A stretch of DNA of 64,000 bases from Lysobacterales bacterium (lineage in GTDB: Bacteria > Pseudomonadota > Gammaproteobacteria > Xanthomonadales > Rhodanobacteraceae), in contig JAFKMZ010000010.1 in NCBI GenBank assembly GCA_017305055.1, positions 62,001 to 126,000 of the forward strand, given 5' to 3'. Both the position numbers and the translations under genes were made by a program. A model generated the notes under the pieces. It worked only from the letters and a program-made list of their open reading frames with translations, did no database searches and had not been told where the DNA came from. Positions 27,265-39,842 of the stretch are shown piece after piece; positions within the stretch are counted from its first letter, which is position 1, and every line of letters begins with the position of its first letter.

Positions 27265-28314
27265 TCATGCCGTCGCCGAGCCATCGTGGCTGCCGCGTGA
27301 TTTCACCATGCCGTGCTTGCGCAACAGCGCGCGCAACTGGTGATAGCTCAGGCCCAGCAGCGGTGCGGCTTCGGTCTGGTTATAGCGGGCCTCGGCCAGG
27401 GCGCGCCTGATCAGATCGACTTCCAGGATGGCGACTTGCGCTTTGATGTCGCATGGGAGAGGGATGGATTCTTCCGCCGGTGGCGCGGCGACATCGTCCG
27501 CGACAGCCTCCGCCGGAGGTCGAAAGGCGGAAGCGAAGGGATCGAAGACGATGGTGTCGACCGGCGCGGCGGCTGCGCTGCGATGCACTGAGCGCTCGAC
27601 GACGTTTTTCAGTTCACGCACATTCCCCGGCCAGGCGTAATGGATCAGCGCCATACGGGCGGACCCGGTGAAACCGGCGAAGAGTTTTCGGCCCAATTCG
27701 CGACTGATGTCGACGGCAAAATGCTCGGCCAATTGCATGATGTCTCCCGCGCGCGCGCGCAGTGGAGGCACCGTCAGCACGTCGAAGGCCAGCCGGTCGA
27801 GCAGGTCGGCACGAAACGTTCCGGCCCGCACGGCGGCCGGCAGGTCCCCGCTGGTGGCCCCGACAATGCGCACATCCACGGTCAGCGTCTCGCCGCCACC
27901 GACGCGCTCGAACTGGCCGTACTCGACCGCACGCAGGATCTTTTCCTGCACGCGCGTCGACACGGTGGCCAGCTCGTCGAGGAACAGCGTGCCGCCGTGC
28001 GCCTGCTCGAAGCGGCCGACGTGGCGGCGGGTGGCACCAGTGAAGGCGCCCGCCTCATGGCCGAACAACTCGGTCTCAAGCAGCGCTTCGGTCAAGGTCG
28101 CGCAATTCAACTTGACCAGCGGGGCCTGCCAGCGCGGCGACAGATAATGCAGTCGTGCCGCAATCAGTTCCTTGCCGGTGCCGCGTTCGCCGATGACCAG
28201 CACCGGCTTGTTTACGGCGGCGACACGCGAGGCATGTTCCAGCAGATCCAGGAAGGCTGGCGACTCGCCCAACATGGTTGTGGTTGGCGCTTCCGATGAC
28301 AGCGTATCCGGCAT
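27265..28314 (-). CDS. pspF: Sigma-54-dependent activator PspF
   Basis: The 349-residue AAA+ enhancer-binding protein has Walker A GERGTGKE at 42-49, the sigma-54 contact loop GAFTGA at 89-94 and Walker B LFLDELA. A Fis-type HTH closes the protein (NQTEAAPLLGLSYHQLRALLRKHGM). It has no receiver or sensor domain, as in PspF, which is held inactive by PspA. It is transcribed away from pspA across a 235-nt AT-rich gap. Expected role: activate the psp operon from the -24/-12 promoter at 28494 when membrane stress releases PspA. Confidence 0.95.
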   Translation of the reverse strand: MPDTLSSEAPTTTMLGESPAFLDLLEHASRVAAVNKPVLVIGERGTGKELIAARLHYLSPRWQAPLVKLNCATLTEALLETELFGHEAGAFTGATRRHVGRFEQAHGGTLFLDELATVSTRVQEKILRAVEYGQFERVGGGETLTVDVRIVGATSGDLPAAVRAGTFRADLLDRLAFDVLTVPPLRARAGDIMQLAEHFAVDISRELGRKLFAGFTGSARMALIHYAWPGNVRELKNVVERSVHRSAAAAPVDTIVFDPFASAFRPPAEAVADDVAAPPAEESIPLPCDIKAQVAILEVDLIRRALAEARYNQTEAAPLLGLSYHQLRALLRKHGMVKSRGSHDGSATA

Positions 28315-28464
28315 GGGGCATCACGATGAGGATCGGGGTCGGGATGGGTGTACTGCTTGGCAAAAGCCATTGTCACTTAATATTCGCCATTTTAACCATA
28401 TATAAGTCAAACAATCCATCATGAAGCATGACCACTGCCGGACATTCATGCATAACTTTATATT

Positions 28465-28477
28465 TATCAATATGTTG
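28465..28477 (+). promoter_or_regulatory. Consensus IHF-binding site in the psp control region
   Basis: TATCAATATGTTG matches the IHF consensus WATCAA-N4-TTR at every fixed position. It lies in a strongly AT-rich stretch (about 28370-28480) and ends 17 bp before the -24 element, where DNA bending would bring upstream-bound PspF to sigma-54 polymerase. Confidence 0.7.
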
Positions 28478-28493
28478 CACATCATCAGCCATT

Positions 28494-28509
28494 TGGCACG
28501 ACCCCTGCT
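28494..28509 (+). promoter_or_regulatory. Sigma-54 (-24/-12) promoter of pspA
   Basis: TGGCACGACCCCTGCT has GG at 28495-28496 and GC at 28507-28508, the exact 12-bp phasing of a -24/-12 promoter. Transcription should begin near 28520, about 30 nt before the pspA ATG. Confidence 0.8.
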
Positions 28510-28549
28510 CTAAAGACCCTGCGGTCCTTCACTTCACGAGGTGAGCAAC

Positions 28550-29230
28550 ATGGGCGTTTTTTCGAGAATGAGCGACATCATCAACTCCAACATCAACGCG
28601 ATGCTGGACAAGGCTGAAGAACCGGAGAAGGTGGTACGGCTGATCATCCAGGAGATGGAGGACACCCTGGTGGAAGTCCGCTCCGCCGCGGCACGCGGAA
28701 TTGCCGACCGCAAGGAACTGGAGCGACGCATCATCTACGCGCAGCGCGAGGCCGACGAGTGGCAGCGTCGGGCCGAACTGGCCATCACCAAGGGACGGGA
28801 CGACCTGGCCAAGGCGGCTCTTGCCGAAAAAAAGCGCATGGACGACGCGCAGGACTTGCTCAAGGAGCAGTCCACGGAGGTCGAACTGGGCCTGGCCAAA
28901 CTCAACGACGACATTGCCGCGCTGCAAGACAAGCTGGCCGATGCCAAGCACCGCCAGAAGGCACTCGAGACCCGTCAGCACACGGCGAGCAACCGCCTGA
29001 AGGCACGCAGCCGGACCCACGACGAGCGGATCAACAATGCCCTGGGCCGGTTCGAGCACTACGAGCGCAAGCTGGAGCACATGGAAGGCAAGGTCGAAGC
29101 CTACGACCTGGGCAAGCAGCACGATCTCGACCGCGAGTTCGCGGACCTGGAAACCAATGACCACGTCGAGGCCGAACTGGCTGCACTGAAAGCACGCATG
29201 AGCCCGGGAAAGCCTGCCAACGCGGAGTAA
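28550..29230 (+). CDS. pspA: Phage shock protein A
   Basis: This 226-residue, almost wholly coiled-coil protein of the PspA/IM30 (ESCRT-III-like) family binds damaged inner membrane and restrains PspF. The N-terminal amphipathic helix MGVFSRMSDIINSNINAML and the signature KVVRLIIQEMEDTLVEVRS are clear. An in-frame GTG at 28541 exists, but ATG 28550 matches the family start and has GAGGTGAG just upstream. The C-terminus HMEGKVEAYDLGKQHDLDREF shares a motif with two downstream psp proteins. Confidence 0.96.
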   Translation: MGVFSRMSDIINSNINAMLDKAEEPEKVVRLIIQEMEDTLVEVRSAAARGIADRKELERRIIYAQREADEWQRRAELAITKGRDDLAKAALAEKKRMDDAQDLLKEQSTEVELGLAKLNDDIAALQDKLADAKHRQKALETRQHTASNRLKARSRTHDERINNALGRFEHYERKLEHMEGKVEAYDLGKQHDLDREFADLETNDHVEAELAALKARMSPGKPANAE

Positions 29231-29236
29231 GGCGCC

Positions 29237-29458
29237 ATGGACTTTACGGCCATTTTCGCACTCTTCTGCATCTTCGTCGCTCCGCTGTGGCTGATCATGC
29301 ACTACACGACGCAGCGCCGGCGCGCGCAGGGCCTGACGCGCGAGGACGAACAGATGCTTGCTGATTTGTGGCGTATCGCCAACCGGATGGAAGAACGCGT
29401 GAAGACGCTGGAAACCATTCTGGATACACAGACACCCACCTGGAGGGACAAGGCATGA
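29237..29458 (+). CDS. pspB: Phage shock protein B
   Basis: This 73-residue membrane protein has one N-terminal helix (FTAIFALFCIFVAPLWLIMHY) and a basic, coiled-coil tail ending RVKTLETILDTQTPTWRDKA. That tail closely matches the PspB ending. With PspC it senses stress and sequesters PspA at the membrane. It lies 6 nt after pspA and overlaps the next gene by 4 nt (ATGA). Confidence 0.93.
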   Translation: MDFTAIFALFCIFVAPLWLIMHYTTQRRRAQGLTREDEQMLADLWRIANRMEERVKTLETILDTQTPTWRDKA

Positions 29459-29727
29459 ACCGTTCGTGGAACGAATACCGGCAACGCCGGCTGTATCGCG
29501 ATCCGGAACACGGTGTGATCCTAGGTGTATGCGCGGGCATCGCCGAACGTTTCGCCTGGCCGGTGTGGCTGACACGGGTCGCAACCCTGGCACTGGCCTG
29601 GTACTTCCCGGTGTCGGTGGCTGTGGCCTATATCGTGGCTGCGCTGATCATGCCCGAGCGCCCGCTGCGCTATTGTGGCGACGGCGATGAACGCAGCTTC
29701 TGGCAATCACGCCGGCACCGGAGCTGA
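29455..29727 (+). CDS. PspC-domain protein, first copy
   Basis: The 90-residue protein has the PspC core RLYRDPEHGVILGVCAGIAERFAWPVWLTRVATLALAWYF, then a second hydrophobic segment ending MPERPL. It lacks the long C-terminal coiled coil of full PspC proteins. The ATG at 29455 overlaps the pspB stop codon. It is the first of two consecutive PspC-domain genes, so the partner that binds PspB/PspA may be the second, fuller copy. Confidence 0.88.
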   Translation: MNRSWNEYRQRRLYRDPEHGVILGVCAGIAERFAWPVWLTRVATLALAWYFPVSVAVAYIVAALIMPERPLRYCGDGDERSFWQSRRHRS

Positions 29728-29730
29728 GTC

Positions 29731-30123
29731 ATGAGAGACGACGGAACCTGGCGCGCGCAGCGCTTTTACCGCGACCCGCAGCACGGCAAGCTCATGGGCG
29801 TATGCGCCGGCGTAGCCGATTATTTCGGCTGGAACGTCACCGTCGTCCGCGTCCTGGCGATCATTGCGCTGCTCTGGTTCAACGCACTCACGCTGGTCGC
29901 ATACCTCGTCCTCGGCTTCATGCTTCCAACCAAGCCGGACACGCCCTACACCTGGGATGCCGACGAGGAATACTGGCGCAGCGTCAGGCGCTCGGCGGGC
30001 GGAACCTTCCGCGACGTGCGCCACCGCTTTCGCGAGCTGGACATGAAGTTGCAGCACATGGAAGGCTACGTCACGTCGAGTCGATACGATCTTGATCGCC
30101 AATTCCGCGATCTGGAACACTAG
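29731..30123 (+). CDS. pspC: Phage shock protein C, full-length copy
   Basis: The 130-residue protein has the PspC domain (QRFYRDPQHGKLMGVCAGVADYFGWNVTVVRVLAII) and a second membrane helix ending MLPTKPD. A cytoplasmic coiled-coil tail follows, with HMEGYVTSSRYDLDRQF. The tail corresponds to the MERYVTS...L..RF ending of Escherichia coli PspC. With PspB it should form the membrane signal complex. It lies 3 nt after the short PspC-domain gene. Confidence 0.93.
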   Translation: MRDDGTWRAQRFYRDPQHGKLMGVCAGVADYFGWNVTVVRVLAIIALLWFNALTLVAYLVLGFMLPTKPDTPYTWDADEEYWRSVRRSAGGTFRDVRHRFRELDMKLQHMEGYVTSSRYDLDRQFRDLEH

Positions 30124-30437: not shown

Positions 30438-32123
30438 TCAGGCGACAACCCCTCGCGGCTCGGTGATGCGGTCGGCGAAGCGGTCGGCCAGCGCCGCTAT
30501 GGTCAGCGACGGGTTGGTACCTACCGGGCCGGGCATGATCGAGCCGTCCGCGACGTAGAAGCCGGGATAGCCGAAAACCTCGCCGTATTCGTTGACCACG
30601 CCCTCGTCCGCGTTGCGGCCCATCGGCGCGCCGCCCAACCCGTGCACGGTGATGATGCGGCGGCCGAGATGCCAGGTGGGATTGCTCTGGAATGAGCCGC
30701 CCCAGGCCTCCTCGGTGATCGCACGCATGGTGTCGGTCAGCCGGGTGAAGAATGGCGACGACCGCTTGATGCTCCAGTCGCTGGAGAGCAGTCCATCCTC
30801 CAGGCTGAGGTTGCCGTCGGGCACGTCGCGCCCCATGCCCAGCAAGGGAATGGATGAGGCAGACAGGTTGCCCGTACCGAGCAGGTTGGCGATGTCCGCA
30901 CTCAGGTTGGTGGTGGTGTTGATGCCGAATGCCGAAAGCAGGCGGCGCCAGGCCAGGCGCTGGGCGCGCCCGAGCGTCGCGGCGAAGCCGGCGGTCTCCA
31001 CCAGCCAGGACATGAAGGCGGGGTAGCCCGCATCCTCGATGTAGAAGCCGCGGCCACTGCCACCGTCCAGCGCGTCTGGCATGTGCAGCGAGCTGGTGAT
31101 GACCGGGCCATAGTTGCCGTCGAGCGCCCACGGCTGCTTGCCGTTCGCGGTCTGCTTCGAGCAGCGCAAGGCGAAGGTGAGCAGGTCGCCGTTGCTGCAG
31201 AAATGCGAGCCCAGCGTCCGGCTGAGACCCGGGAACTGCGCCCGGTTGCTCAGCAGGAGATAGGTGCTGCCGAACGTGCCTGCCGACAGGATCAGGCGGT
31301 TCGCCGAGATCGTGGTCAGTGGCGCATCCGCGTGTGCCGGCTCCCCGGGCACGTGCTGGCGGTACGAGATCAGATAACCACCGCCGGCGCGCGGCGCGAA
31401 GGTCTTCACTTCGGCCAAGGTGCGCAGGTCGGCCCCGGCGCGCTTGGCCGCCGACAGGTAGTTGTAGTCCAGGGTGTTCTTGCTGCCATAGTTGCAGCCG
31501 ACGTCGCATTCGCCGCACAGCCGGCAGGTGCTGCGGGTACGGTCGTGCAGGTTGCGGTGGGCCTCGACGATCGGCTCGCCCGGCACCGGTTCGGCGCCAT
31601 CGTTGGCGAAGGTCACCGCCAGCGGCGGCAGCATCCACTCCAGGCCCAGCTTCTCGCCGGCCATGCGCATCGCCTTGGTCTTCTCGGTCTGGTCGTACGG
31701 CGCCTTGGCGAACGGATAGCGCTGCGCATTCATCATGCGCTCCACCCGGTCGTAGTGCGGATCGAGTTCGGCGCGGGTCACCGGCCAATACTCGTGGCCC
31801 GGCACGCCAGGCTGCTCGCGCACGAACCACTTCTCGTCCTTGCGCAGCAGCACGTTCGCGTAGATCAGCGAGCCGCCGCCCAGGCCGCTGGAGATGAGCG
31901 CGTCGATGTGCTTGAACGACCATACGTCGAACAGGCCGAACATGCCCGCGCCAGGATCCCAGAAGTTCGCGTGCATGGCCTTGGGCGTGCGCGCGAACGA
32001 GCCCGGCGGGTAGGCCTTGCCGCGCTCCAGCAGACATACGCTCTGCCCGGCCTCGGCCAACCGGTACGCCGACACCGAGCCGCCGAATCCCGAGCCCACC
32101 ACTACTGCGTCGAAGTGTTCCAT
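30438..32123 (-). CDS. GMC-family oxidoreductase (cholesterol-oxidase-like)
   Basis: The 561-residue FAD enzyme has a dinucleotide motif VVVGSGFGGSVSAYRLAEAG (7-26) and the substrate/FAD segment SSGLGGGSLIYANVLLR (78-94). A C-terminal part reads VADGSIMPGPVGTNPSLTIAALADR with the GMC His/Asn region. The overall shape is that of bacterial cholesterol/steroid oxidases. A four-cysteine knot, Cys200-x2-Cys203-x2-Cys206-x3-Cys210, may bind metal or an Fe-S cluster. It is the last gene of the six-gene operon and its start overlaps the metallophosphoesterase stop by 22 nt. Probable role: oxidise an alcohol group on a lipid-like substrate. Confidence 0.88.
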   Translation of the reverse strand: MEHFDAVVVGSGFGGSVSAYRLAEAGQSVCLLERGKAYPPGSFARTPKAMHANFWDPGAGMFGLFDVWSFKHIDALISSGLGGGSLIYANVLLRKDEKWFVREQPGVPGHEYWPVTRAELDPHYDRVERMMNAQRYPFAKAPYDQTEKTKAMRMAGEKLGLEWMLPPLAVTFANDGAEPVPGEPIVEAHRNLHDRTRSTCRLCGECDVGCNYGSKNTLDYNYLSAAKRAGADLRTLAEVKTFAPRAGGGYLISYRQHVPGEPAHADAPLTTISANRLILSAGTFGSTYLLLSNRAQFPGLSRTLGSHFCSNGDLLTFALRCSKQTANGKQPWALDGNYGPVITSSLHMPDALDGGSGRGFYIEDAGYPAFMSWLVETAGFAATLGRAQRLAWRRLLSAFGINTTTNLSADIANLLGTGNLSASSIPLLGMGRDVPDGNLSLEDGLLSSDWSIKRSSPFFTRLTDTMRAITEEAWGGSFQSNPTWHLGRRIITVHGLGGAPMGRNADEGVVNEYGEVFGYPGFYVADGSIMPGPVGTNPSLTIAALADRFADRITEPRGVVA

Positions 32124-34054
32124 GCCTGCGCACTCGCTTGGGGGTCTCCGGAGGACACGGCGCTGGCAGCGACGGGTGCCGGGACCGTGAAGGGATCCTC
32201 GATCAGGTGTACCCGCGGCGGCTCGTCATGCCGCGGTCGGAAATAAGGTTTGCGCCGGTTGGCGCGCGGGTCGAAGCGCCAACGCGCCACGCGACGGATG
32301 CCGACTGCGTATACCGCCAGCGTGCCATCCGCCTGCAGATGGATGCGCAGGAAGTTCTTGTAGTGCTCGATGTGCTGTGACGAATAGGCCTCGTTGAAAT
32401 TGACCCCCGGCAGCAGCGCCAGGCTGAACAGCAAGGCGCCCAGCGGCCCGCCGATCACGATCATCTCGACGATGTACAGCGCGCCCTGCATCCACAGCCG
32501 CTCGTGACCCGGCGCCTGCAGGCCGAGCAGCGCGCCGATGTGGGCAAACCACCAGGTGAGCGCGAGCACCAGGGCCAGGTGGGCCAGCCCGTGCACGACG
32601 CCGATCCACTTGAGCCAGGCCGGTCGGCCGGGATCCGGATTGCAGAACTGGTACAGGCCAAACACCAGCAGCGCGGCAATCACCATCAGCGCCGGCACCT
32701 GCACCATGATCTCCACCAGCACACCGAATACGTCACCGGCACGGGACAGCGGCTGCTGGCTCAACCAGGCCATCAAGGCATTCATTGGCGTATCCGCGCC
32801 GACCGTGCTCTGCACCAGCAGCGAGCCCTGGCTGGCGCTCTGCAGCAGCCACCCGCACAGCACGTAGATCAGGCCGAGGGCGAACACGAACCATGGGTTC
32901 TTGAAGCCCAGCAGCAGTGCCCCGGCGCGCAGGCGGCGTGAGGTGGATTGGTCCGGATACACCGGGCCGCGGGCATAGGTCTTGGTGGTCGCGCTGGTGC
33001 CCTGTCCGGGTTCGGTCGAATCCACCTTGGTCAGCTCGATGGCGTCGGGCAACCGGTGCGTGCCGTACAGATAGGCGCCACCGCCGCCGGCCGTGAGCTT
33101 GTGCCGCTGCCCGGTCGAATCTGAGTAGCGCGCGTAATGGTGCAGGTCGCCACTCAGTGAGAGCATCAGTTTCGCCTGCCGCGGGCACAGGATCGTGCGT
33201 TCGAAGAACAGCAGGTTGCGGTTGGCGTTCGACGTATCGCACTCTTCCACCCATGACGGCTGCGCCGTGCACAGGATCACCTGGTCACCGGGCTGCATGT
33301 GTGCGGCCACTTCGGTGAAGTAGTCGATCTGTGGCTGGTCGATGTCCGAGGCCAGCTGGATGTCGATGCCGAGCAGCCACCAGCGCTGCGGCAGCTTCAG
33401 CGCGAAGTAGCTGCGCGTCTGCCGGGTCTTCCAGGCACCGATGGAGCGGCGCTGGCAGAACAGGCGCATGAAGCTGGTGAGACCGTCGTACCAGTCGTGG
33501 TTGCCCGGTATCGAGAACAGGTGCGGCCTGGCCGCTTCCTCGTCAATCCACGGCAGCGCCGCCTCGAACGGGCCGTAGAAGCGGTTTTCGTATTGTGTGC
33601 GGGAGGCGGTCGGATACACCTGGTCGCCGCCAAGGATCAACACCTGGCCACGCTTGGTCGCCGCCAGCAGCTCGCGCTGCCGCGGATGTTCGGGCAACGC
33701 CTCGGCAGGCAGTTGCGCGTGGCCAAACAGCCACGCCACGCTATAGGTGGAATCGAAGCCATCGCCGAGATCGGCGGCAAAATCGATCCACAATTCGGGT
33801 GATCCGGAATAGTCATGGATCGCCGGTTGGGCACCATGCGCCAGTGCCGCCTGGGTCTCGCGCTGGTCGGCATAGGCGCCGAAGATGCTCGAGAGCAGCG
33901 CGCGGATGCCGGTGCGGATCAGCTGCACCGGATCGAACCACTGCGTCATGCGCTGCGGCGTCCAGGTCAGCGGGACCGGCGCGCTGTCCACAGCCACCGC
34001 CGGCTCTTCCGCGGGCGGGACCGTGGGATCGTAGGGAACTCGCGAGGTAGGCAT
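32102..34054 (-). CDS. Metallophosphoesterase with C-terminal membrane segments
   Basis: The 650-residue protein has an N-terminal calcineurin-like phosphoesterase domain: GGDQVYP (Asp144), GNHDWYDG (Asn186-His187-Asp188) and SGDLHHYARY. Several hydrophobic helices follow (from NPWFVFALGLIYVLCGWLLQ through VEMIVIGGPLGALLFSLALL), then a basic cytoplasmic tail. The metal-binding residues look intact. A membrane-attached phosphoesterase beside lipases and an oxidase suggests action on a phosphorylated lipid intermediate (inference). It is 27 nt downstream of the patatin gene and overlaps the GMC gene. Confidence 0.85.
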   Translation of the reverse strand: MPTSRVPYDPTVPPAEEPAVAVDSAPVPLTWTPQRMTQWFDPVQLIRTGIRALLSSIFGAYADQRETQAALAHGAQPAIHDYSGSPELWIDFAADLGDGFDSTYSVAWLFGHAQLPAEALPEHPRQRELLAATKRGQVLILGGDQVYPTASRTQYENRFYGPFEAALPWIDEEAARPHLFSIPGNHDWYDGLTSFMRLFCQRRSIGAWKTRQTRSYFALKLPQRWWLLGIDIQLASDIDQPQIDYFTEVAAHMQPGDQVILCTAQPSWVEECDTSNANRNLLFFERTILCPRQAKLMLSLSGDLHHYARYSDSTGQRHKLTAGGGGAYLYGTHRLPDAIELTKVDSTEPGQGTSATTKTYARGPVYPDQSTSRRLRAGALLLGFKNPWFVFALGLIYVLCGWLLQSASQGSLLVQSTVGADTPMNALMAWLSQQPLSRAGDVFGVLVEIMVQVPALMVIAALLVFGLYQFCNPDPGRPAWLKWIGVVHGLAHLALVLALTWWFAHIGALLGLQAPGHERLWMQGALYIVEMIVIGGPLGALLFSLALLPGVNFNEAYSSQHIEHYKNFLRIHLQADGTLAVYAVGIRRVARWRFDPRANRRKPYFRPRHDEPPRVHLIEDPFTVPAPVAASAVSSGDPQASAQAWNTSTQ

Positions 34055-34081
34055 GTGATACCCCCAGGTCTCAGCCCGGCC

Positions 34082-35629
34082 TCATTTGAACGCAGCCGGC
34101 GCGTAGCTCTTCCACAGCTCCCTGGCGAAGAAGCTGCCGAACTGGCCGATCAGTCTGGCCGCCTCCACCGGCGAGCCGGCGTCCACCGCGCGCACGCTCG
34201 CCGCGACCTTGGCGAACGCGATGGCATCGAGCCTGAGCACGCCGGCACCAACCACCTTGCCGGTGGTGTCACTACCCTCGTGCAAGCGGGTGTACAGCGT
34301 GGTGGTGTCGCTCCACAGGTCGAAGCCCGGGTCGTCGTGGACATGCTTGGCCCCGGCCAGGTAATAAGCCTTGCCGGCGTGCTCGAACGGCAGCTCGTAC
34401 ACCATCAGCGTGGTGTCTGCGGCATCGGCCGGCGCGAACAGGCGGAACACGCCCGCTCCGGTCGGCATGGCCATGCCCATCGGGGCGAAATCGATGGTGC
34501 CGGCCAGCGTGCCGTTGTGGTTCGGGTCCTGGACGAAGCGGTCCAGGTCCCTCACGGTGACGGTGACGTGGATCGCCAGCGTGGTCCCAGCGCCCTTGCC
34601 GGCGGTGGCACCCGCGTCCGGCTCGGTGGCGCCGAGCGAAAAAGGCCCCTGCATGGTTTCCTGGAACGAAATCCCTGGTACGGCGGGTGTCATCATGAGC
34701 GTCTCCGGGCTGAGGGCATCGCCCTCATCGGTCGTGGTGGCGAGGTAACGCTGGGCGTCCACATAGCCCATCTGGATCAGCGTACGTGCGTCGGTGCGCC
34801 CCAGGTACAGATCCGTGTCCAGCGGCAGCGGATGCGGCGGACGGATGACGTGCACCCGGATGGGAGCCCGCTGTCCGTACGGCGAGTCGCCTGCGGCAAT
34901 GCGCGCGTTGAGCTGGGCGATGTCGTCGAACTCGCGGTTGAGGCTGGCATTGGCGGCCATCTCCAGCATCTGCACGTAGATGTGCAAGGCGCCGCCCAGG
35001 TACTCGGCGCTGTTGCCCAGGCACCAGACCAGCCAGATTTCCTCGGCACCGCGGCGCACCGCCTCCATCAGGTTCGCGTCACGGGCGAACGCCGCATCGA
35101 GATAGACCGAGCCGTTCCAGCCCACCGGCGGCATGACACCCGGCAGCGACATGCCGGCGACAAACAGCTCCTGATTCAGCTGCTGGTGCGCGACGACCTC
35201 GTTGACCTTGCGTGTGTAGTTGAAGACGTTGAACGTGCCCTGCAGCCACGTCGCGCCGCGCACGGCCTCCAGGTCGATGCCCAGGTGCGGATAGACATAG
35301 TCGATGAAGGCGTCGGCGCTGCCCATGGCCACCTGCCGATCCTGGCGCAGGTAGCTCTCCAGCGGCATCAGCGACAGCGAGCGCCGAAGCTGCAGGCTCG
35401 TCCAGCGCTCGCCCATCTCCGCCGGCGACAGCCCTGACAACAGCATGGCAAGGTTGATTGCCCCGCCCGAGGTGGCATCGATGTGCTGGAAGGCGAGGCC
35501 GGCCTCATGCAGGGCCCGCAACACGCCAGCCTGGTAGGACAGCCGCATGCCGCCGCCGGACAGCACCAGCGAACGGCGGCGAGCGGCGTCGGCTGGGGCG
35601 GCAAACACGGGAGGACTGGGCGTGGTCAC
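34082..35629 (-). CDS. Patatin-like phospholipase
   Basis: The 515-residue protein has the patatin oxyanion motif LVLSGGGMRLSYQAG (22-36). The nucleophile Ser54 sits in DATSGGAINLA, so the usual G-x-S-x-G reads A-T-S-G-G. The catalytic Asp is probably Asp178 in VYLDAAFARD. Catalysis therefore uses the Ser-Asp dyad on acyl lipids. A C-terminal ~200-residue domain without a recognised family follows. The start is a GTG overlapping the hydrolase stop by 4 nt (GTGA), so translation is coupled. Confidence 0.88.
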   Translation of the reverse strand: MTTPSPPVFAAPADAARRRSLVLSGGGMRLSYQAGVLRALHEAGLAFQHIDATSGGAINLAMLLSGLSPAEMGERWTSLQLRRSLSLMPLESYLRQDRQVAMGSADAFIDYVYPHLGIDLEAVRGATWLQGTFNVFNYTRKVNEVVAHQQLNQELFVAGMSLPGVMPPVGWNGSVYLDAAFARDANLMEAVRRGAEEIWLVWCLGNSAEYLGGALHIYVQMLEMAANASLNREFDDIAQLNARIAAGDSPYGQRAPIRVHVIRPPHPLPLDTDLYLGRTDARTLIQMGYVDAQRYLATTTDEGDALSPETLMMTPAVPGISFQETMQGPFSLGATEPDAGATAGKGAGTTLAIHVTVTVRDLDRFVQDPNHNGTLAGTIDFAPMGMAMPTGAGVFRLFAPADAADTTLMVYELPFEHAGKAYYLAGAKHVHDDPGFDLWSDTTTLYTRLHEGSDTTGKVVGAGVLRLDAIAFAKVAASVRAVDAGSPVEAARLIGQFGSFFARELWKSYAPAAFK

Positions 35630-36711
35630 GACTCGGCGGTCTCCTCGAGGTGGCGCAGTATATACGGATAGACGTCCCGATCGGCATGCTCGCCGATGAT
35701 GCAGTCGACGTGGCCGTAGCCGGGGATCACCTCGCGCCAGTACAGCGCAGAGCCATTGCGCTCTGCCAGCGCGTCCCGTGACGCGGCCGTGCTCTCGGGC
35801 ACCAGGCAGTCATTGTCGGCACCATGCACGAACAGGATCGGGATCGCCATCAGCTCCAGGCGTGGCAGGTAGCTGTCGGTGCCGTCCTCGCGCACCACGT
35901 GTCCGGCCCGCAGGTTGCGGATAAGGTGCCGGAACGCGCGCAGGTTCGCCTGGCCGAACTGCTCGGGCAGGGTCGCGTGCGTCTCGCCGCCCAGCCTGGC
36001 GTGCCGGTACAGCGGCCCATACATCGCGCTGATGCGCCGGCAGGTGGCGCTGTCGCAGCGCTCGGCCGGTGCGATCGGTTGCAGCCGGGTGCCCAGCGCG
36101 AACATGCGCTCACGCCAGCCACCGTGGGGCTGCGGCACCGCGTGCAGGGCCTTCACCCCGAGCCAGCCCATGAGCGTCGGCATCCCCATGTACGACTTGA
36201 GACGGTTCAGGGGCGCGGGGATGGGATGGATCGCCACCTGCGAGCACACCGCGGAGCGCACGCCTTGCAAGCCGGACAGCATGGCCATGCTGAAGGTCTG
36301 CGCACCGATACCATGGGCGACGACCTGGACGCTGCGCGCACCACTGACGGCGAGGACCAGCTGCACCGCGGCTGGGTAGTCGTATTGCGCGATCTCGTCG
36401 AAGCTCGACTGCCGCGACTGTGCATCGAGGTCGATGCTGAGGCGCATGTCCAGCAACCAGACGTCGAAACCGGCGGCGTACAGGTATTCGAGGAGATTGG
36501 TGGGAATCGTATCCAGCGCATACATGCGGCTGGACACGCCGATGCAGTGCACCAGCATGACCGGTCCGCGGCTGCCGCCCCGATGGCGCGTCAGGCGCAG
36601 TTCCACCCCATCCTCGGTGGTGAAGGGGTGGGTTTGCGCGGCATCCACGCGCAGGCGCCGGCGCCCCGGGACGTCCGCGTGCCGCATGGTCGTCTCCCCC
36701 AGCACCATCAT
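35626..36711 (-). CDS. Alpha/beta hydrolase-fold protein lacking the nucleophile
   Basis: The 361-residue alpha/beta hydrolase fold has the oxyanion-side VMLVHCIGVS, the nucleophile-elbow segment VVAHGIGAQTF, HGADNDCLVPES (acid region) and PGYGHVD (His334). At the elbow the residue expected to be Ser or Cys is Gly134, so classical hydrolysis is not expected; Asp299/Asp301 and His334 remain. It is homologous to the hydrolase at 37633 along its whole length. It overlaps the decarboxylase-like gene (ATGA) upstream and the patatin gene downstream, both by 4 nt. Confidence 0.8.
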   Translation of the reverse strand: MMVLGETTMRHADVPGRRRLRVDAAQTHPFTTEDGVELRLTRHRGGSRGPVMLVHCIGVSSRMYALDTIPTNLLEYLYAAGFDVWLLDMRLSIDLDAQSRQSSFDEIAQYDYPAAVQLVLAVSGARSVQVVAHGIGAQTFSMAMLSGLQGVRSAVCSQVAIHPIPAPLNRLKSYMGMPTLMGWLGVKALHAVPQPHGGWRERMFALGTRLQPIAPAERCDSATCRRISAMYGPLYRHARLGGETHATLPEQFGQANLRAFRHLIRNLRAGHVVREDGTDSYLPRLELMAIPILFVHGADNDCLVPESTAASRDALAERNGSALYWREVIPGYGHVDCIIGEHADRDVYPYILRHLEETAES

Positions 36712-37619
36712 GCTCCGGCATCGACAGCGGAGCGCGGGGTGGCGTCATGCCCCGCCGCTGCGGAACCAGGCGGCGGCAGCCAGGTTTCCCCGAGGCCCAG
36801 ACCGACCACGCTTTCCAGTCCCTCCGGCACCTGGGCGGGGGGCTCGGCGTAGCTCAGGAACCAGCTTTCCAGGTGGTCATCGAGCACCCCGGAACTCTCC
36901 GGGAAGTAGCCGACGAACAGCGGCCGTTCGCCGATTTCCAGCCGGCGCAGGACCTCGGCGCGCGGGTGCGTGCCGAGCGTGAGCCGCGCCGACGCCTTGC
37001 GCCACAGTCGAAAGCCCATCTTGCCGTGGAAGTAGATGCTGGACTTCATCAGCATGCCGCGGAACGCGCACCAGTTGATCGCGCCCGTGCTGACCGGAAA
37101 CGACTCCCGGCGCGGCCGCCCGATTTCCACTTCCGCCACCATCGCGCCATCGAGGTCATAGCGGCTGCGCACGGACGCGTCCGTGATCTGGAAGTCCAGG
37201 TTGGCCTGGTGCTTGGGCATGCCCCAGATGCCCTTGCCGCCCTTCACCGAGACCTCGGTACTGACCGGCAGGTCGAACACGTACTGGCCGAGGCCGCAGG
37301 ACTTGCGGAACAGCATGGCGCGCAGCAGCGATACCGGCCGTGGCCCGTGCGTGCAGCCGATGCCGAGGCTGTACTCGATGTACTTGCCGATGCTGGTCTG
37401 GCGGTAGTCGATCACCGATACCAACAGGATCGCATGGCGCCCGAGGCGCAGCGGATGCAGCTCGTTGCCCGGCAGCAGTTCGGCCGCGCGCACGGGGTTG
37501 ATGGGAAACGCCGCCATCAAGGCCGGGCTGCCGGCAGATGCCACCGGCAGCACAAACGGGATGCCATCCACCAGGGCATGCCGGCCACCTTGTTGCCTGA
37601 GTCTGCGGGGTATCGCCAT
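36708..37619 (-). CDS. Acetoacetate decarboxylase family protein
   Basis: The 303-residue protein carries the ADC-family segment SVKGGKGIWGMPKHQANL (124-141). Lys135 in GMPK occupies the place of the Schiff-base lysine of acetoacetate decarboxylase (GFPK). Also family-like are YIEYSLGIGC and VFDLPVSTEVSV. Relatives include decarboxylases, aldolase-dehydratases and lactonase-like members, so the reaction is open. It sits between two alpha/beta hydrolases in a tightly packed operon: 13 nt after the first, 4-nt overlap with the second. Confidence 0.82.
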   Translation of the reverse strand: MAIPRRLRQQGGRHALVDGIPFVLPVASAGSPALMAAFPINPVRAAELLPGNELHPLRLGRHAILLVSVIDYRQTSIGKYIEYSLGIGCTHGPRPVSLLRAMLFRKSCGLGQYVFDLPVSTEVSVKGGKGIWGMPKHQANLDFQITDASVRSRYDLDGAMVAEVEIGRPRRESFPVSTGAINWCAFRGMLMKSSIYFHGKMGFRLWRKASARLTLGTHPRAEVLRRLEIGERPLFVGYFPESSGVLDDHLESWFLSYAEPPAQVPEGLESVVGLGLGETWLPPPGSAAAGHDATPRSAVDAGA

Positions 37620-37632
37620 ATGCGCCTCGCCT

Positions 37633-38685
37633 CTAGTTGGTCCGGTCCAGCTCCTGCAGCATCAGCGGCAGCACGTCGCGATGGGCGTGCTGGCCCATGA
37701 AGATGTCCAGATGGCCGTACTCGGGAATGACATGCAAGCTGTGGTATCCGGGACGCAGGCCGTCGAGCCAGGCAAAACTGCGCTGCTGACTCTCCGGCAG
37801 GAAACAGCGGTTCCTGGCACCGGTGAAGAACGCGAAGCGCGCCGTGGTTTTCGGAGCCTGCGCAACGGGATCGGCAGGCACGTCCTTGGGGCGGTCGTAC
37901 GCCACCAGGTGCCCGGCCGCAATGCAATCGGCCATCTGCTGGAAGAACGAGAGCGGCACGTCGGCAAACTCGCCCTGCATCCAGTCATGGGTGGCCGCAT
38001 TCAGGTTTTCGTGCCGCCACAGCGTGGGAAAGCCGACCCCGTAGGCGAAGCTCGACCAGCGGCAGACCATGTTGTCGCATTCGTGGTGGGTCAAGCGGAT
38101 CACGCCGTTCAGCGTCTTGGCCAGCAGACCCGGAGGATGCAGCCCCCATTGCGGGTTGACGAACGGGGTGAGCGAGGCCAGCAGCGGCACGCTGAGCTTG
38201 CCCTTGATGCGTGCCGCCAGCGGCACGACGGTGTGGAAAGACACCGCGTTGCTGACGATCGTGTCCACCTGGGGCAGCAGGCCGAGCGCCGCGGACAGAC
38301 AGAACGACGTGGAACCCTGGCAATGCACGATGGCCTTGATGCTGGTGGCGCCGGTCTCCCTGGCAACCGTCTCGACCGCCACCGGATGGTCATAGAGTGC
38401 AGCTTGATCGATGGTCCATCGGCACGGAGTCAGGTCGATGCTGGCGCGCCAGTTTTCCATCCATACGTCATAGCCTGCGTCCAGCAGCAGGTCGACGACA
38501 GTGGCCTCGACAGGCGCGCGGAAGATGTTCGCCCGTACCCCCGCGCCATGCACCAGCAGGACCGGTCCCTTGTCCGGAGAGCGCTGGCCACGCACCTGGA
38601 CGACGTTGCACGGCTGCCCGTCGCGCGCCTGGAACGGCACCACCCGATCCACTGCGGCGGCGTGACTCTGGCTGGCGAATGGCAT
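37633..38685 (-). CDS. Alpha/beta hydrolase with cysteine nucleophile
   Basis: The 350-residue alpha/beta hydrolase is the first gene of the six-gene operon. The nucleophile elbow reads AIVHCQGSTSF with Cys122 where Ser is usual. His325 is in PEYGHLD, but both Asp positions of its paralogue (GADNDCLVPES) are Arg here (GARNRCFLPES, Arg291/Arg293). It is a paralogue of the protein at 35626. Similar domains occur fused to GMC oxidoreductases in actinobacteria (from memory), which links it to the GMC gene at the operon's end. Substrate unknown. Confidence 0.82.
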   Translation of the reverse strand: MPFASQSHAAAVDRVVPFQARDGQPCNVVQVRGQRSPDKGPVLLVHGAGVRANIFRAPVEATVVDLLLDAGYDVWMENWRASIDLTPCRWTIDQAALYDHPVAVETVARETGATSIKAIVHCQGSTSFCLSAALGLLPQVDTIVSNAVSFHTVVPLAARIKGKLSVPLLASLTPFVNPQWGLHPPGLLAKTLNGVIRLTHHECDNMVCRWSSFAYGVGFPTLWRHENLNAATHDWMQGEFADVPLSFFQQMADCIAAGHLVAYDRPKDVPADPVAQAPKTTARFAFFTGARNRCFLPESQQRSFAWLDGLRPGYHSLHVIPEYGHLDIFMGQHAHRDVLPLMLQELDRTN

Positions 38686-38841: not shown

Positions 38842-39600
38842 TCAGACCGCCCGCAGCGCCACCAGGATGGCCGGCACATGAGCCGTGACAGCCTCCAGAT
38901 GGGCGAAGATGTCGGCGGCGCTGATCTCCGCCTGATCGCCGCAGCCGGCGGCGAAATTGGCCACCAGGGCCAGGCACGCGTAGTCGACCGCCAACTCCCG
39001 CGCGAGCACGGCCTCGGGCATCCCGGTCATCCCCACCAGGTCACAGCCATCGCGCCGCAGGCGGGCGATTTCCGCGCGCGTCTCCAGGCTCGGCCCCTGG
39101 GTGACGCCATAGCACCCACCGTCCACGACCGCCACCCCGGCCTCGGCCGCAGCCGCCAGCAACTGCCGACGCAAAGATGCCGCATAGGGCTCGGTGAAAT
39201 CGACATGCTCCACCTTGGCACCGTCGACGTCGTGGAAGCTGCCCTCGCGGCCCCAGGTGTAGTCGATGAGCTGGTCTGGCACCACGATGCTGCGCGGTCC
39301 CAGGTCGGCGCGTATCCCACCCACCGCATTGACCGCGACCAGGCGCCGGACACCAAGCTGGTGCAGGGCCCAGACATTGGCGCGGTAATTGACCCGATGC
39401 GGCGCCAGCCGATGATCCTCGCCGTGGCGGGCCAGGAAGGCCATGCGCTGCGCGCCCAGCATGCCAATCACGACCTCCCCGGAGGGCTCGCCAAACGGCG
39501 TCTGCACACGATGGCGCTCGGCGTCCTGCAGGCCGGCAAGCGCATACAGTCCGCTGCCGCCGATGACCCCAAGCGCGACCGGAGATGTGGTTTCTGTCAT
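38842..39600 (-). CDS. S-methyl-5'-thioinosine/thioadenosine phosphorylase
   Basis: The 252-residue trimeric-type purine nucleoside phosphorylase of the MTAP family begins LGVIGGSGLYALAGL with phosphate-binding FLARHGEDHRLAPHRVNYRAN. It has AVNAVGGIRADLGP and the purine-site segment LVGMTGMPEAVLARE. In Pseudomonas and relatives this clade prefers methylthioinosine formed by deaminating methylthioadenosine, and works in polyamine by-product salvage. The substrate choice here is inferred from lineage. MTETTSP at 39600 is the start; the upstream open frame is spurious. Confidence 0.88.
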   Translation of the reverse strand: MTETTSPVALGVIGGSGLYALAGLQDAERHRVQTPFGEPSGEVVIGMLGAQRMAFLARHGEDHRLAPHRVNYRANVWALHQLGVRRLVAVNAVGGIRADLGPRSIVVPDQLIDYTWGREGSFHDVDGAKVEHVDFTEPYAASLRRQLLAAAAEAGVAVVDGGCYGVTQGPSLETRAEIARLRRDGCDLVGMTGMPEAVLARELAVDYACLALVANFAAGCGDQAEISAADIFAHLEAVTAHVPAILVALRAV

Positions 39601-39842
39601 CACGGGTTCCTGGAGTTTCCCCGGCTGTCGCGGCGGAGCGCCACGTTCAGCGGCCGGCACGCCATTGTGCCGCGAAACCCGCGGCCAGCCCACCCCATGC
39701 AGATTCACCGCGCCAACATTGGCAGTCCAGACGGCCGTTGCCACCATTCGCAGACGCAGCGCGGCGGCCTTCTCCGGGGACTCCCGGTGGACGCTGGCAT
39801 GTGGTTGCAGCATCATGGCGCGACCAGTCAGGGGAGAGCACC

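Follow-up and report, generated by a model that had tools for sequence, protein, structure and literature searches.

A conserved six-gene operon of lipid-enzyme families linked by a shared beta-rich domain, PATC, and a putative membrane-associated route

Closest described systems

The families closest to the six proteins of this operon, which lies in a 64,000-nucleotide stretch of DNA (the window), are known one by one. The GMC flavoprotein oxidase of the window has in common with GMC-type cholesterol oxidase the FAD fold and aligned active-site His and Asn residues; unlike cholesterol oxidase, its relatives are encoded in one operon with, or fused to, Cys-hydrolases and a domain here called PATC. 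The acetoacetate-decarboxylase-like protein (ADC) belongs to the acetoacetate decarboxylase superfamily, with a family score above the cut-off and with the Schiff-base Lys and its Glu retained, whereas it lacks the equivalents of Arg29, Glu61, and Lys116 of acetoacetate decarboxylase proper. The patatin shares GxSxG and Asp with patatin-like phospholipases and, unlike other members of that group, ends in a C-terminal PATC domain. The alpha/beta hydrolase ABH1 matches acid lipases around the nucleophile elbow and a late His, but the Ser of those lipases is replaced by Cys in ABH1 and by Gly in the second hydrolase, ABH2. A Cys nucleophile in the elbow is also found in polyhydroxyalkanoate (PHA) synthase, a feature shared by ABH1 and not by ABH2, although both hydrolases score far under the PhaC cut-offs. 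A PhaC has been modelled on human gastric lipase, as a passage of PMC1636056 describes. Cys-nucleophile acid-lipase-like enzymes of the ABH1 kind bridge lipases and PHA synthases. No description of the cluster was found in one library of open-licence papers, which was searched by family combinations and by single families.

Layout of the operon

The operon consists of six consecutive minus-strand ORFs encoding proteins of 350, 303, 361, 515, 650, and 561 aa, with joins, in order, of a 13-nt gap, a 4-nt overlap, a second 4-nt overlap, a 27-nt gap, and a 22-nt overlap; the six genes and joins listed in an earlier note on this DNA matched the ORF coordinates exactly. The first gene, which also opens the core trio ABH1-ADC-patatin, is ABH1 (37633..38685), and it is followed by ADC (36708..37619), the ABH1 paralogue ABH2 (35626..36711), the patatin gene (34082..35629), the metallophosphoesterase gene MPE (32102..34054), and the GMC oxidase gene (30438..32123). 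The 515-aa product of the patatin gene is made up of a patatin domain (aa 1-299; 34733..35629) and, as its C-terminal part, PATC (200 aa; 34082..34732). The six genes are probably co-transcribed; a scan for promoters and terminators gave no match, a point against the reading preferred below.

In a simple hydropathy scan, none of the six proteins had a hydrophobic segment at its N terminus, and TM-like helices were confined to MPE, in which five TM-like segments, two of them overlapping, follow the catalytic domain at aa 389-549. Because N-terminal hydrophobic segments were absent, a cytoplasmic route, presumably membrane-associated, is likelier than the uptake that the earlier note had suggested as one option.

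Conserved neighborhood, fusion proteins, and the PATC domain

Among 80 GMC-anchored loci, PATC was present in 67, any alpha/beta hydrolase (ABH) in 48, MPE in 40, ABH1 in 27, patatin in 27, and ADC in 26. ADC and ABH1 were both present in 25 loci and the whole trio ABH1-ADC-patatin in 16. PATC accompanied ADC in 25 of 26 cases, ABH1 in 26 of 27, and the patatin domain in 27 of 27; the one ADC locus without PATC (L075) lies on a contig that starts with a cut GMC. An ADC-anchored search of 197 genomes from a single actinobacterial class found PATC in 11 (E<=1e-15) and ADC in 5 (E<=1e-40), each of these 5 being among the 11 with PATC. With the seed genome excluded, GMC, PATC, ABH1, ADC, and patatin occurred together in four of four genomes, one of them with the set split over two contigs, and MPE was present too in two.

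The six genes had been suggested to form a single functional unit, and the conserved neighborhoods in distant bacteria support this. Linked genes recur in distant bacteria, the trio being found also in Cyanobacteria, Eremiobacterota, and other Pseudomonadota. The six-family set, seen in 13 loci, was wholly actinobacterial, and 38 of the 40 loci with MPE of this kind were actinobacterial too, which counts against the reading preferred below. Two further distributions count against it: 13 of the 80 loci had no PATC, with GMC alone in 7 of the 80, including two long loci (L022 and L071), and 11 of 15 further PATC genomes had no ADC. The neighborhoods also vary, another point against it, in that subsets of the loci contained FAD_binding_4 oxidase, 3beta-HSD-like, DUF6765, PhoD-like, and haem-peroxidase genes.

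Fusions also connect these families. GMC-PATC fusions were present in 36 of the 80 GMC-anchored loci, PATC-patatin fusions in 13, and PATC-ABH fusions in 7, and no ORF joining GMC to ABH was found among these 80 loci. GMC/alpha-beta-hydrolase fusions, which the earlier note had mentioned, do exist: six GMC-PATC-ABH ORFs (1130-1183 aa, stop to stop) were found. Five are from genomes of the phylum to which the window belongs and the sixth is from that of a cyanobacterium (G364), and PATC stands between the two other domains in all six. These triple fusions contain the same three domain kinds as the window's GMC, PATC, and ABH2; unlike window ABH2, they are single chains in which the Cys nucleophile is present. 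One of the six triple-fusion genomes (G663) also has ADC, at another place, and the other five had no ADC match; in one genome, a trio and a triple fusion were both present, approximately 0.7 Mb apart (L121 and L125). PATC is thus the glue of the gene team, being fused to GMC, to patatin, or to a hydrolase or lying within GMC-PATC-ABH.

PATC is a separate domain of about 200 aa at the end of the window patatin, and it had no sequence match in Pfam or the PDB. Its predicted structure (model pLDDT, 92.7) is largely beta, and a long helix forms the C terminus. A fold search of the PDB gave nothing at an E value of <=0.001; the weak matches, MppR and lipocalins, were set aside as fold relatives, with TM-scores only up to approximately 0.35. 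The PATC alignment was built from the window and 46 of the 67 places with this domain. Stops or N occurred in 2 of these 67; such places were dropped from the PATC, ADC, ABH1, MPE, and patatin alignments, as were, by choice, partial or similar rows. Conservation, fusions, and active-site residues anchor the cluster and PATC, yet PATC itself matches nothing in Pfam or the PDB.

Active sites and a proposed two-module route

The patatin scored 77.4 bits with PF01734, over the cut-off, and its Ser54/Asp178 dyad was kept in 18 of 18 aligned sequences (17 of 25 patatins plus the window). MPE scored 18.7 bits with Metallophos (PF00149), under the Pfam cut-off of 21.5. Its predicted model gave Foldseek matches to purple acid phosphatase, GpdQ, and SMPDL3B, with 32 PDB chains at an E value of <=0.001, which strengthens the phosphoesterase assignment; the mean pLDDT of that model was only 76, a point against the preferred reading. 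The metal motifs GNHD and GDxH were invariant in 23 of 23 aligned sequences (22 of 35 MPEs plus the window).

We tentatively favor, at somewhat less than even confidence, a reading in which the six genes form one pathway of two modules. Module A, comprising GMC, PATC, an ABH2-type protein, and the phosphoesterase, would be an oxidase module able to stand alone; module B, the trio ABH1-ADC-patatin, would combine acyl and decarboxylase chemistry and occur in company with PATC. A hydrophobic substrate would be held at the inner face of the membrane. The phosphoesterase would take off a phosphate, perhaps a lipid phosphate, the patatin (Ser-Asp) and ABH1 (Cys-His) would cleave or transfer acyl esters, and GMC would convert a secondary alcohol to a ketone by using O2. 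The ADC lysine would react with the keto group to form a Schiff base, in the simplest case for decarboxylation of a beta-keto acid to a ketone lipid. PATC may serve as a substrate-holding or docking domain common to GMC, patatin, and hydrolase. More doubtful is the broader proposal that such a pathway, not described so far, exists in distant phyla, with the beta-rich PATC linking a flavin oxidase, a patatin, and Cys-hydrolases, and that a membrane lipid is dephosphorylated, de- or transacylated, oxidized, and decarboxylated to a ketone lipid new to bacteria. An anti-phage defence system was also considered and rejected; PADLOC, run on the six proteins, gave one 16-bit match, to a model named for a desaturase.

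ADC scored 57 bits with PF06314, above the gathering cut-off of 29.8, and its Glu82 and Lys136 were kept in 23 of 23 aligned sequences (22 of 25 ADCs plus the window). In an alignment with a clostridial acetoacetate decarboxylase sequence, these two residues correspond to Glu76 and Lys115. The positions of Arg29, Glu61, and Lys116 (clostridial numbering) are occupied in the same alignment by Ser, Val, and His, and because these equivalents are lost, ADC may perform aldol or dehydration chemistry rather than decarboxylation. A PDB search with the 23-row ADC profile gave only two matches, both at chance level (E, 0.2). A route to a specialized metabolite, in which ADC would be an aldolase or dehydratase and the hydrolases, as acyltransferases or cyclases, would make an antibiotic or a small lipid signal, is unlikely, although it draws on several of these observations. 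Of the five residues compared, ADC keeps just Lys and Glu; MppR of enduracididine synthesis is an ADC-superfamily member with an aldolase/dehydratase role; hydrolases with a Cys nucleophile fit acyl transfer; the spread is patchy; and the variable 3beta-HSD and FAD_binding_4 partners resemble tailoring genes. However, none of the eight neighbor families scanned was of the PKS, NRPS, thiolase, or CoA-ligase kind, and similar parts in distant phyla would be unusual for such a product.

GMC matched GMC_oxred_C (59.9 bits) and GMC_oxred_N (34.1 bits) in Pfam, and cholesterol oxidase was its best named match in both the PDB (1b8s and others) and NCBIfam (NF058674), where its 196.1 bits fell short of the curated cut-off of 850. 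In the stretch aligned with 1b8s, His494 and Asn537 fall on the active-site pair, the catalytic His and Asn of cholesterol oxidase; the third active-site residue, Glu361, lies outside the aligned stretches. The His/Asn motif pair was matched in 52 of 83 GMC ORFs, a count that includes cut or unmatched ORFs and that weighs against the preferred reading. The GMC tree covered 75 of the 80 loci plus the window. Handling of sterols or steroid esters, with ABH1 freeing the sterol, GMC oxidizing the 3-OH, and ADC decarboxylating a 3-keto-4-carboxylate-like intermediate, would agree with these matches, with the closeness of ABH1 to gastric and lysosomal acid lipase, and with the 3beta-HSD-like gene in 7 of the 80 loci; it is nonetheless improbable, given a GMC score of 196 bits against 850 and the absence of N-terminal hydrophobic segments in the hydropathy scan. 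The hopanoid substrate suggested earlier was rejected as a common substrate: the host genome (97% complete) had no match to the C-terminal family of squalene-hopene cyclase, and the marker was patchy, with the cyclase family over the cut-off in 9 of 17 cluster genomes and the whole profile covered in only 4.

Abhydrolase_1 scores for the two hydrolases were 20.0 and 24.9 bits, both under the Pfam cut-off of 25.8. The closest PDB sequences to ABH1 were gastric lipase and lysosomal acid lipase, and its nucleophile is Cys122, in an HCQGS elbow, not Ser. Cys122, Gln123, Gly124, and His325 were identical in 23 of 23 aligned sequences (22 of 27 ABH1s plus the window); Asn292 did not vary, whereas position 291 did (Asp in 16 of 23), so the alignment does not assign the triad acid. 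The Cys motif was present in 49 of 50 ABH ORFs of the 80 loci, one ORF (in L032) being off pattern, and Cys was present in 10 of 10 later loci, a count that leaves out L098-L106. The nucleophile position of ABH2 is Gly (HGIGA), and the nucleophile is thus absent; ABH2 is closest to the ABH part of the GMC-PATC-ABH fusions and by now is probably a non-catalytic partner. The earlier view that the hydrolases remove acyl groups consequently needs revision, to a Cys enzyme in ABH1 and to no nucleophile in ABH2.

Metabolism of polyesters or storage lipids, in which the Cys-hydrolases would act like PHA synthase or depolymerase and GMC and ADC would turn the released 3-hydroxy acids into ketones, is as improbable as the sterol reading. 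The Cys of the ABH1 elbow, the weak PhaC match of ABH2, and the modelling of a PhaC on gastric lipase (PMC1636056, in the passage cited above) speak for it. Against it, ABH2 reached 23.5 bits with NCBIfam PhaC, for which the cut-off is 365.3, ABH1 had no match to that model, and the window hydrolases had no match to PhaC_N in Pfam. Among the 17 cluster genomes, PhaC_N was over the cut-off in 6, strongly in 5, and the host match was partial (24.7 bits versus a cut-off of 23.7). On this patchiness, the PHA-type polyester of the earlier suggestion was rejected as a shared substrate.

Genomic setting

The gene for S-methyl-5'-thioinosine phosphorylase (MTIP) served as the anchor for an empty-site comparison. 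MTIP matches were found in 27 of 31 genomes, the host's own included, and 12 neighborhoods were compared, 11 from the same genus and 1 from the same order, some of which end at contig edges. None of the six operon genes lay near MTIP in these 12 relatives, and the other tested window neighbors were absent there too, so the comparison shows that the operon is missing there without marking a clean point of insertion. In a family sample of 197 genomes, the phosphoesterase was found in 1, the host's own. An accidental adjacency of six unrelated lipid enzymes, with which these absences would agree, can be dismissed, because the genes recur together, linked and fused, in distant bacteria. The G+C content (67.2% versus 66.2%) did not mark the operon as foreign, and loci of this type were found in soil bacteria, including Paenarthrobacter, Arthrobacter, Streptomyces, and Geodermatophilus.

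Conserved gene neighborhood

The six minus-strand genes at 30438-38685, which encode in order an alpha/beta hydrolase (ABH1), an acetoacetate-decarboxylase-like protein (ADC), a second alpha/beta hydrolase (ABH2), a patatin, a metallophosphoesterase (MPE), and a cholesterol-oxidase-like flavoprotein oxidase (GMC), are a real, conserved gene team, apparently undescribed, whose mechanism we infer; no description of this family combination was found in a library of open-licence papers. The ORF coordinates exactly reproduced the intergenic joins listed in the earlier note. Its family assignments held at Pfam cut-offs for ADC, patatin, and GMC, and both hydrolases and the phosphoesterase scored below theirs.

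Genome contigs were scanned with GMC, and the best 80 of the 88 loci with relatives were retained. The ~200 additional C-terminal residues of the window's patatin (PATC) had counterparts in 67 of these 80 loci, any alpha/beta hydrolase was present in 48, MPE in 40, ABH1 and the patatin domain in 27 each, and ADC in 26. ADC and ABH1 occurred together in 25 loci, the trio ABH1-ADC-patatin in 16, the five families GMC, PATC, MPE, ABH1, and ADC in 20, and all six in 13; GMC stood without other cluster families in 7. PATC accompanied 25 of the 26 ADC loci, 26 of the 27 ABH1 loci, and all 27 patatin loci in this set, the exceptions being L075, whose contig starts with a cut GMC, and L012, whose contig ends inside ABH1. 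GMC-MPE-ABH layouts with 4-nt overlaps were found in the Paenarthrobacter/Arthrobacter loci L064, L065, L068, and L078, and in L064 and L068 a further 4-nt overlap carried the layout on to ADC. The Xenococcus locus (L010) had the layout GMC-DUF6765-ABH1-ADC-patatin, and an Eremiobacterota bin (L026) had a divergent arrangement.

Judged from record titles, Actinobacteria contributed 63 of the best 80 loci, including 38 of the 40 with MPE, 25 of the 27 with ABH1, 24 of the 26 with ADC, and all 13 with the six-family set; the remaining ABH1 and ADC genes were those of the cyanobacterium (L010) and the Eremiobacterota bin. PATC also adjoined GMC in Chloroflexota, Deinococcota, and Thermomicrobiota and was not found in the Myxococcota, Bacteroidota, and Desulfovibrionales loci among these 80. 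Some records are MAG bins, for which mis-binning is possible. Two contigs titled as Bifidobacterium breve MAGs (L033 and L074) carried near-identical GMC genes without other cluster genes; in the GMC tree these genes fell among those of Actinobacteria, and their contigs are possibly mis-binned.

Anchoring on ADC and PATC gave a similar picture in 197 genomes from the class of G361 (Paenarthrobacter, the seed and genome of L064). Five genomes matched the ADC profile at E<=1e-40, and 11 matched the PATC profile at E<=1e-15; all 5 ADC genomes fell among the 11. With the seed excluded, 4 of 4 ADC genomes were among 10 PATC genomes of 196 (hypergeometric ~3.5e-6, ignoring relatedness), and ADC without PATC was not found in this set, the sole unbiased one searched for both. 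ABH1, ADC, patatin, GMC, and PATC were present in all four non-seed genomes and MPE in two; in G491 the set was divided between two contigs, with the break inside MPE. A PATC search of 12 cluster genomes matched 11 at 13 places, of which 12 were already known loci by coordinates and one was a second copy in genome G366. The cluster families thus recurred as the conserved neighborhood that the earlier note had proposed to look for, both among the 80 GMC loci and in the ADC-anchored genomes.

PATC domain and variable partners

Neither the window's PATC residues nor a stand-alone copy had a Pfam match, and PDB sequences yielded no match to the PATC profile. The PATC model, built from a 47-row alignment (pLDDT 92.7), consists mainly of beta strands with a 27-residue helix last; Foldseek returned nothing for it at E<=0.001. 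Among the best 80 of the 88 GMC loci, PATC was fused to GMC in 36, to patatin in 13, and to an alpha/beta hydrolase in 7. The suggested search for GMC-hydrolase fusions was also productive: six ORFs join the two, with PATC between them.

Other partners occurred in subsets of loci: among the best 80, an FAD_binding_4 oxidase in 9, a 3beta-HSD-like protein in 7, and a PhoD-like protein in 4; a haem peroxidase in 3 loci; and DUF6765. These partners are compatible with lipid oxidation and do not fix the substrate. DUF6765 (PF20551) adjoins GMC/PATC genes at L010:11697-12797 (cyanobacterium) and L122:11544-12653 (a proteobacterial genome) and is possibly an extra pathway member. Three loci (L014:5832-7283, L044, and L058) shared a 480-aa protein close to their ABH2-type hydrolase, and a pair of small proteins that look hydrophobic (clusters c6 and c18) recurred between ADC and patatin in L064, L067, L070, and other Micrococcaceae loci; the single copy scanned of each of these three proteins had no Pfam match.

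Distribution and origin

Of 197 genomes searched in the window's family, the window's own was the only one with an MPE match (E<=1e-10). Of 143 in the class, one more had a match, at 37%, and its 6.6-kb contig carried no other cluster genes. Across 398 genomes of the phylum, 8 contained PATC (E<=1e-10), the window's own among them. Three of the seven others (L119, L120, and L121) carried ABH1-ADC-patatin-PATC, two of them with GMC directly downstream (34-35% identity), the window's order minus ABH2 and MPE. Five of the seven (L122-L126) carried GMC-PATC-ABH as single ORFs of 1151-1183 aa, stop to stop, and one genome, G663, had both arrangements. In the phylum of G364 (Xenococcus, seed), PATC occurred in 3 of 194 genomes; the two non-seed loci were a trio with GMC-PATC (L127) and a 1130-aa triple fusion (L128). 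Because just 4 of 15 further PATC genomes had ADC, the oxidase module (GMC, PATC, an ABH2-type hydrolase, and a phosphoesterase) is able to stand without it. In the GMC tree, the window paired with a Bacteroidota bin (99/89), and this pair was nested in a mixed-phylum set (86/93, not starred). This placement, together with the near absence from the family, suggests that the operon was acquired horizontally; its G+C content is already host-like.

Active sites, substrate, and location

ADC Glu82 and Lys136 were present in 23 of 23 aligned sequences; they align with Glu76 and Lys115 of the clostridial enzyme, whose Arg29, Glu61, and Lys116 are not kept. ABH1 is acid-lipase-like (gastric lipase match, E 1.1e-8), but it has Cys122 in place of the Ser nucleophile. 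This Cys was found in all 23 rows of the ABH1 alignment. Across the 80 loci, 49 of the 50 ABH-family ORFs had a Cys at the nucleophile position, as did 10 of 10 later loci. The window's ABH2 has Gly at that position and keeps the later Tyr-Gly-His. Patatin Ser54 and Asp178 (18 of 18 aligned) and the phosphoesterase GNHD and GDxH motifs (23 of 23) were invariant. GMC His494 and Asn537 aligned with cholesterol oxidase; among 83 GMC ORFs, cut or unmatched ones included, 52 had both motif residues, 26 had one, and 5 had neither.

The earlier note proposed one route that takes up or remodels a sterol-, hopanoid-, or polyester-like substrate at the membrane. Seventeen genomes were searched (the window's own, 12 from the loci, and 4 from the ADC test): the squalene-hopene-cyclase family exceeded the cut-off in 9 and matched over the whole profile in 4, with no match in the window's own genome, and PhaC_N exceeded the cut-off in 6 and was strong in 5, with a partial match barely over the cut-off in the window's own genome. 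By hydropathy, membrane helices are confined to MPE, and all six proteins lack a hydrophobic segment at the N-terminus, so that, judged from sequence, a route acting in the cytoplasm on a lipid of the inner leaflet would be likelier than the proposed uptake.

Flanking genes

Directly upstream of ABH1 lies an S-methyl-5'-thioinosine phosphorylase gene (38842-39816, minus strand; NF006599, 365.6 bits); the operon was absent from the fetched neighborhoods of this gene in 12 relatives. A ribosome-site-like stretch, CGGAGGGG, precedes the ABH1 start, and a scan of the operon region found no promoter or terminator patterns. Membrane-stress genes adjoin the lipid operon at 27265-30123: a candidate pspC (identified by eye) and pspA adjoin the GMC end on the plus strand, convergent with GMC, and pspF (minus strand) lies further out. 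Two more GMC-family matches were present in the host genome (G000), at C82:29658-30533 and C105:107-367.
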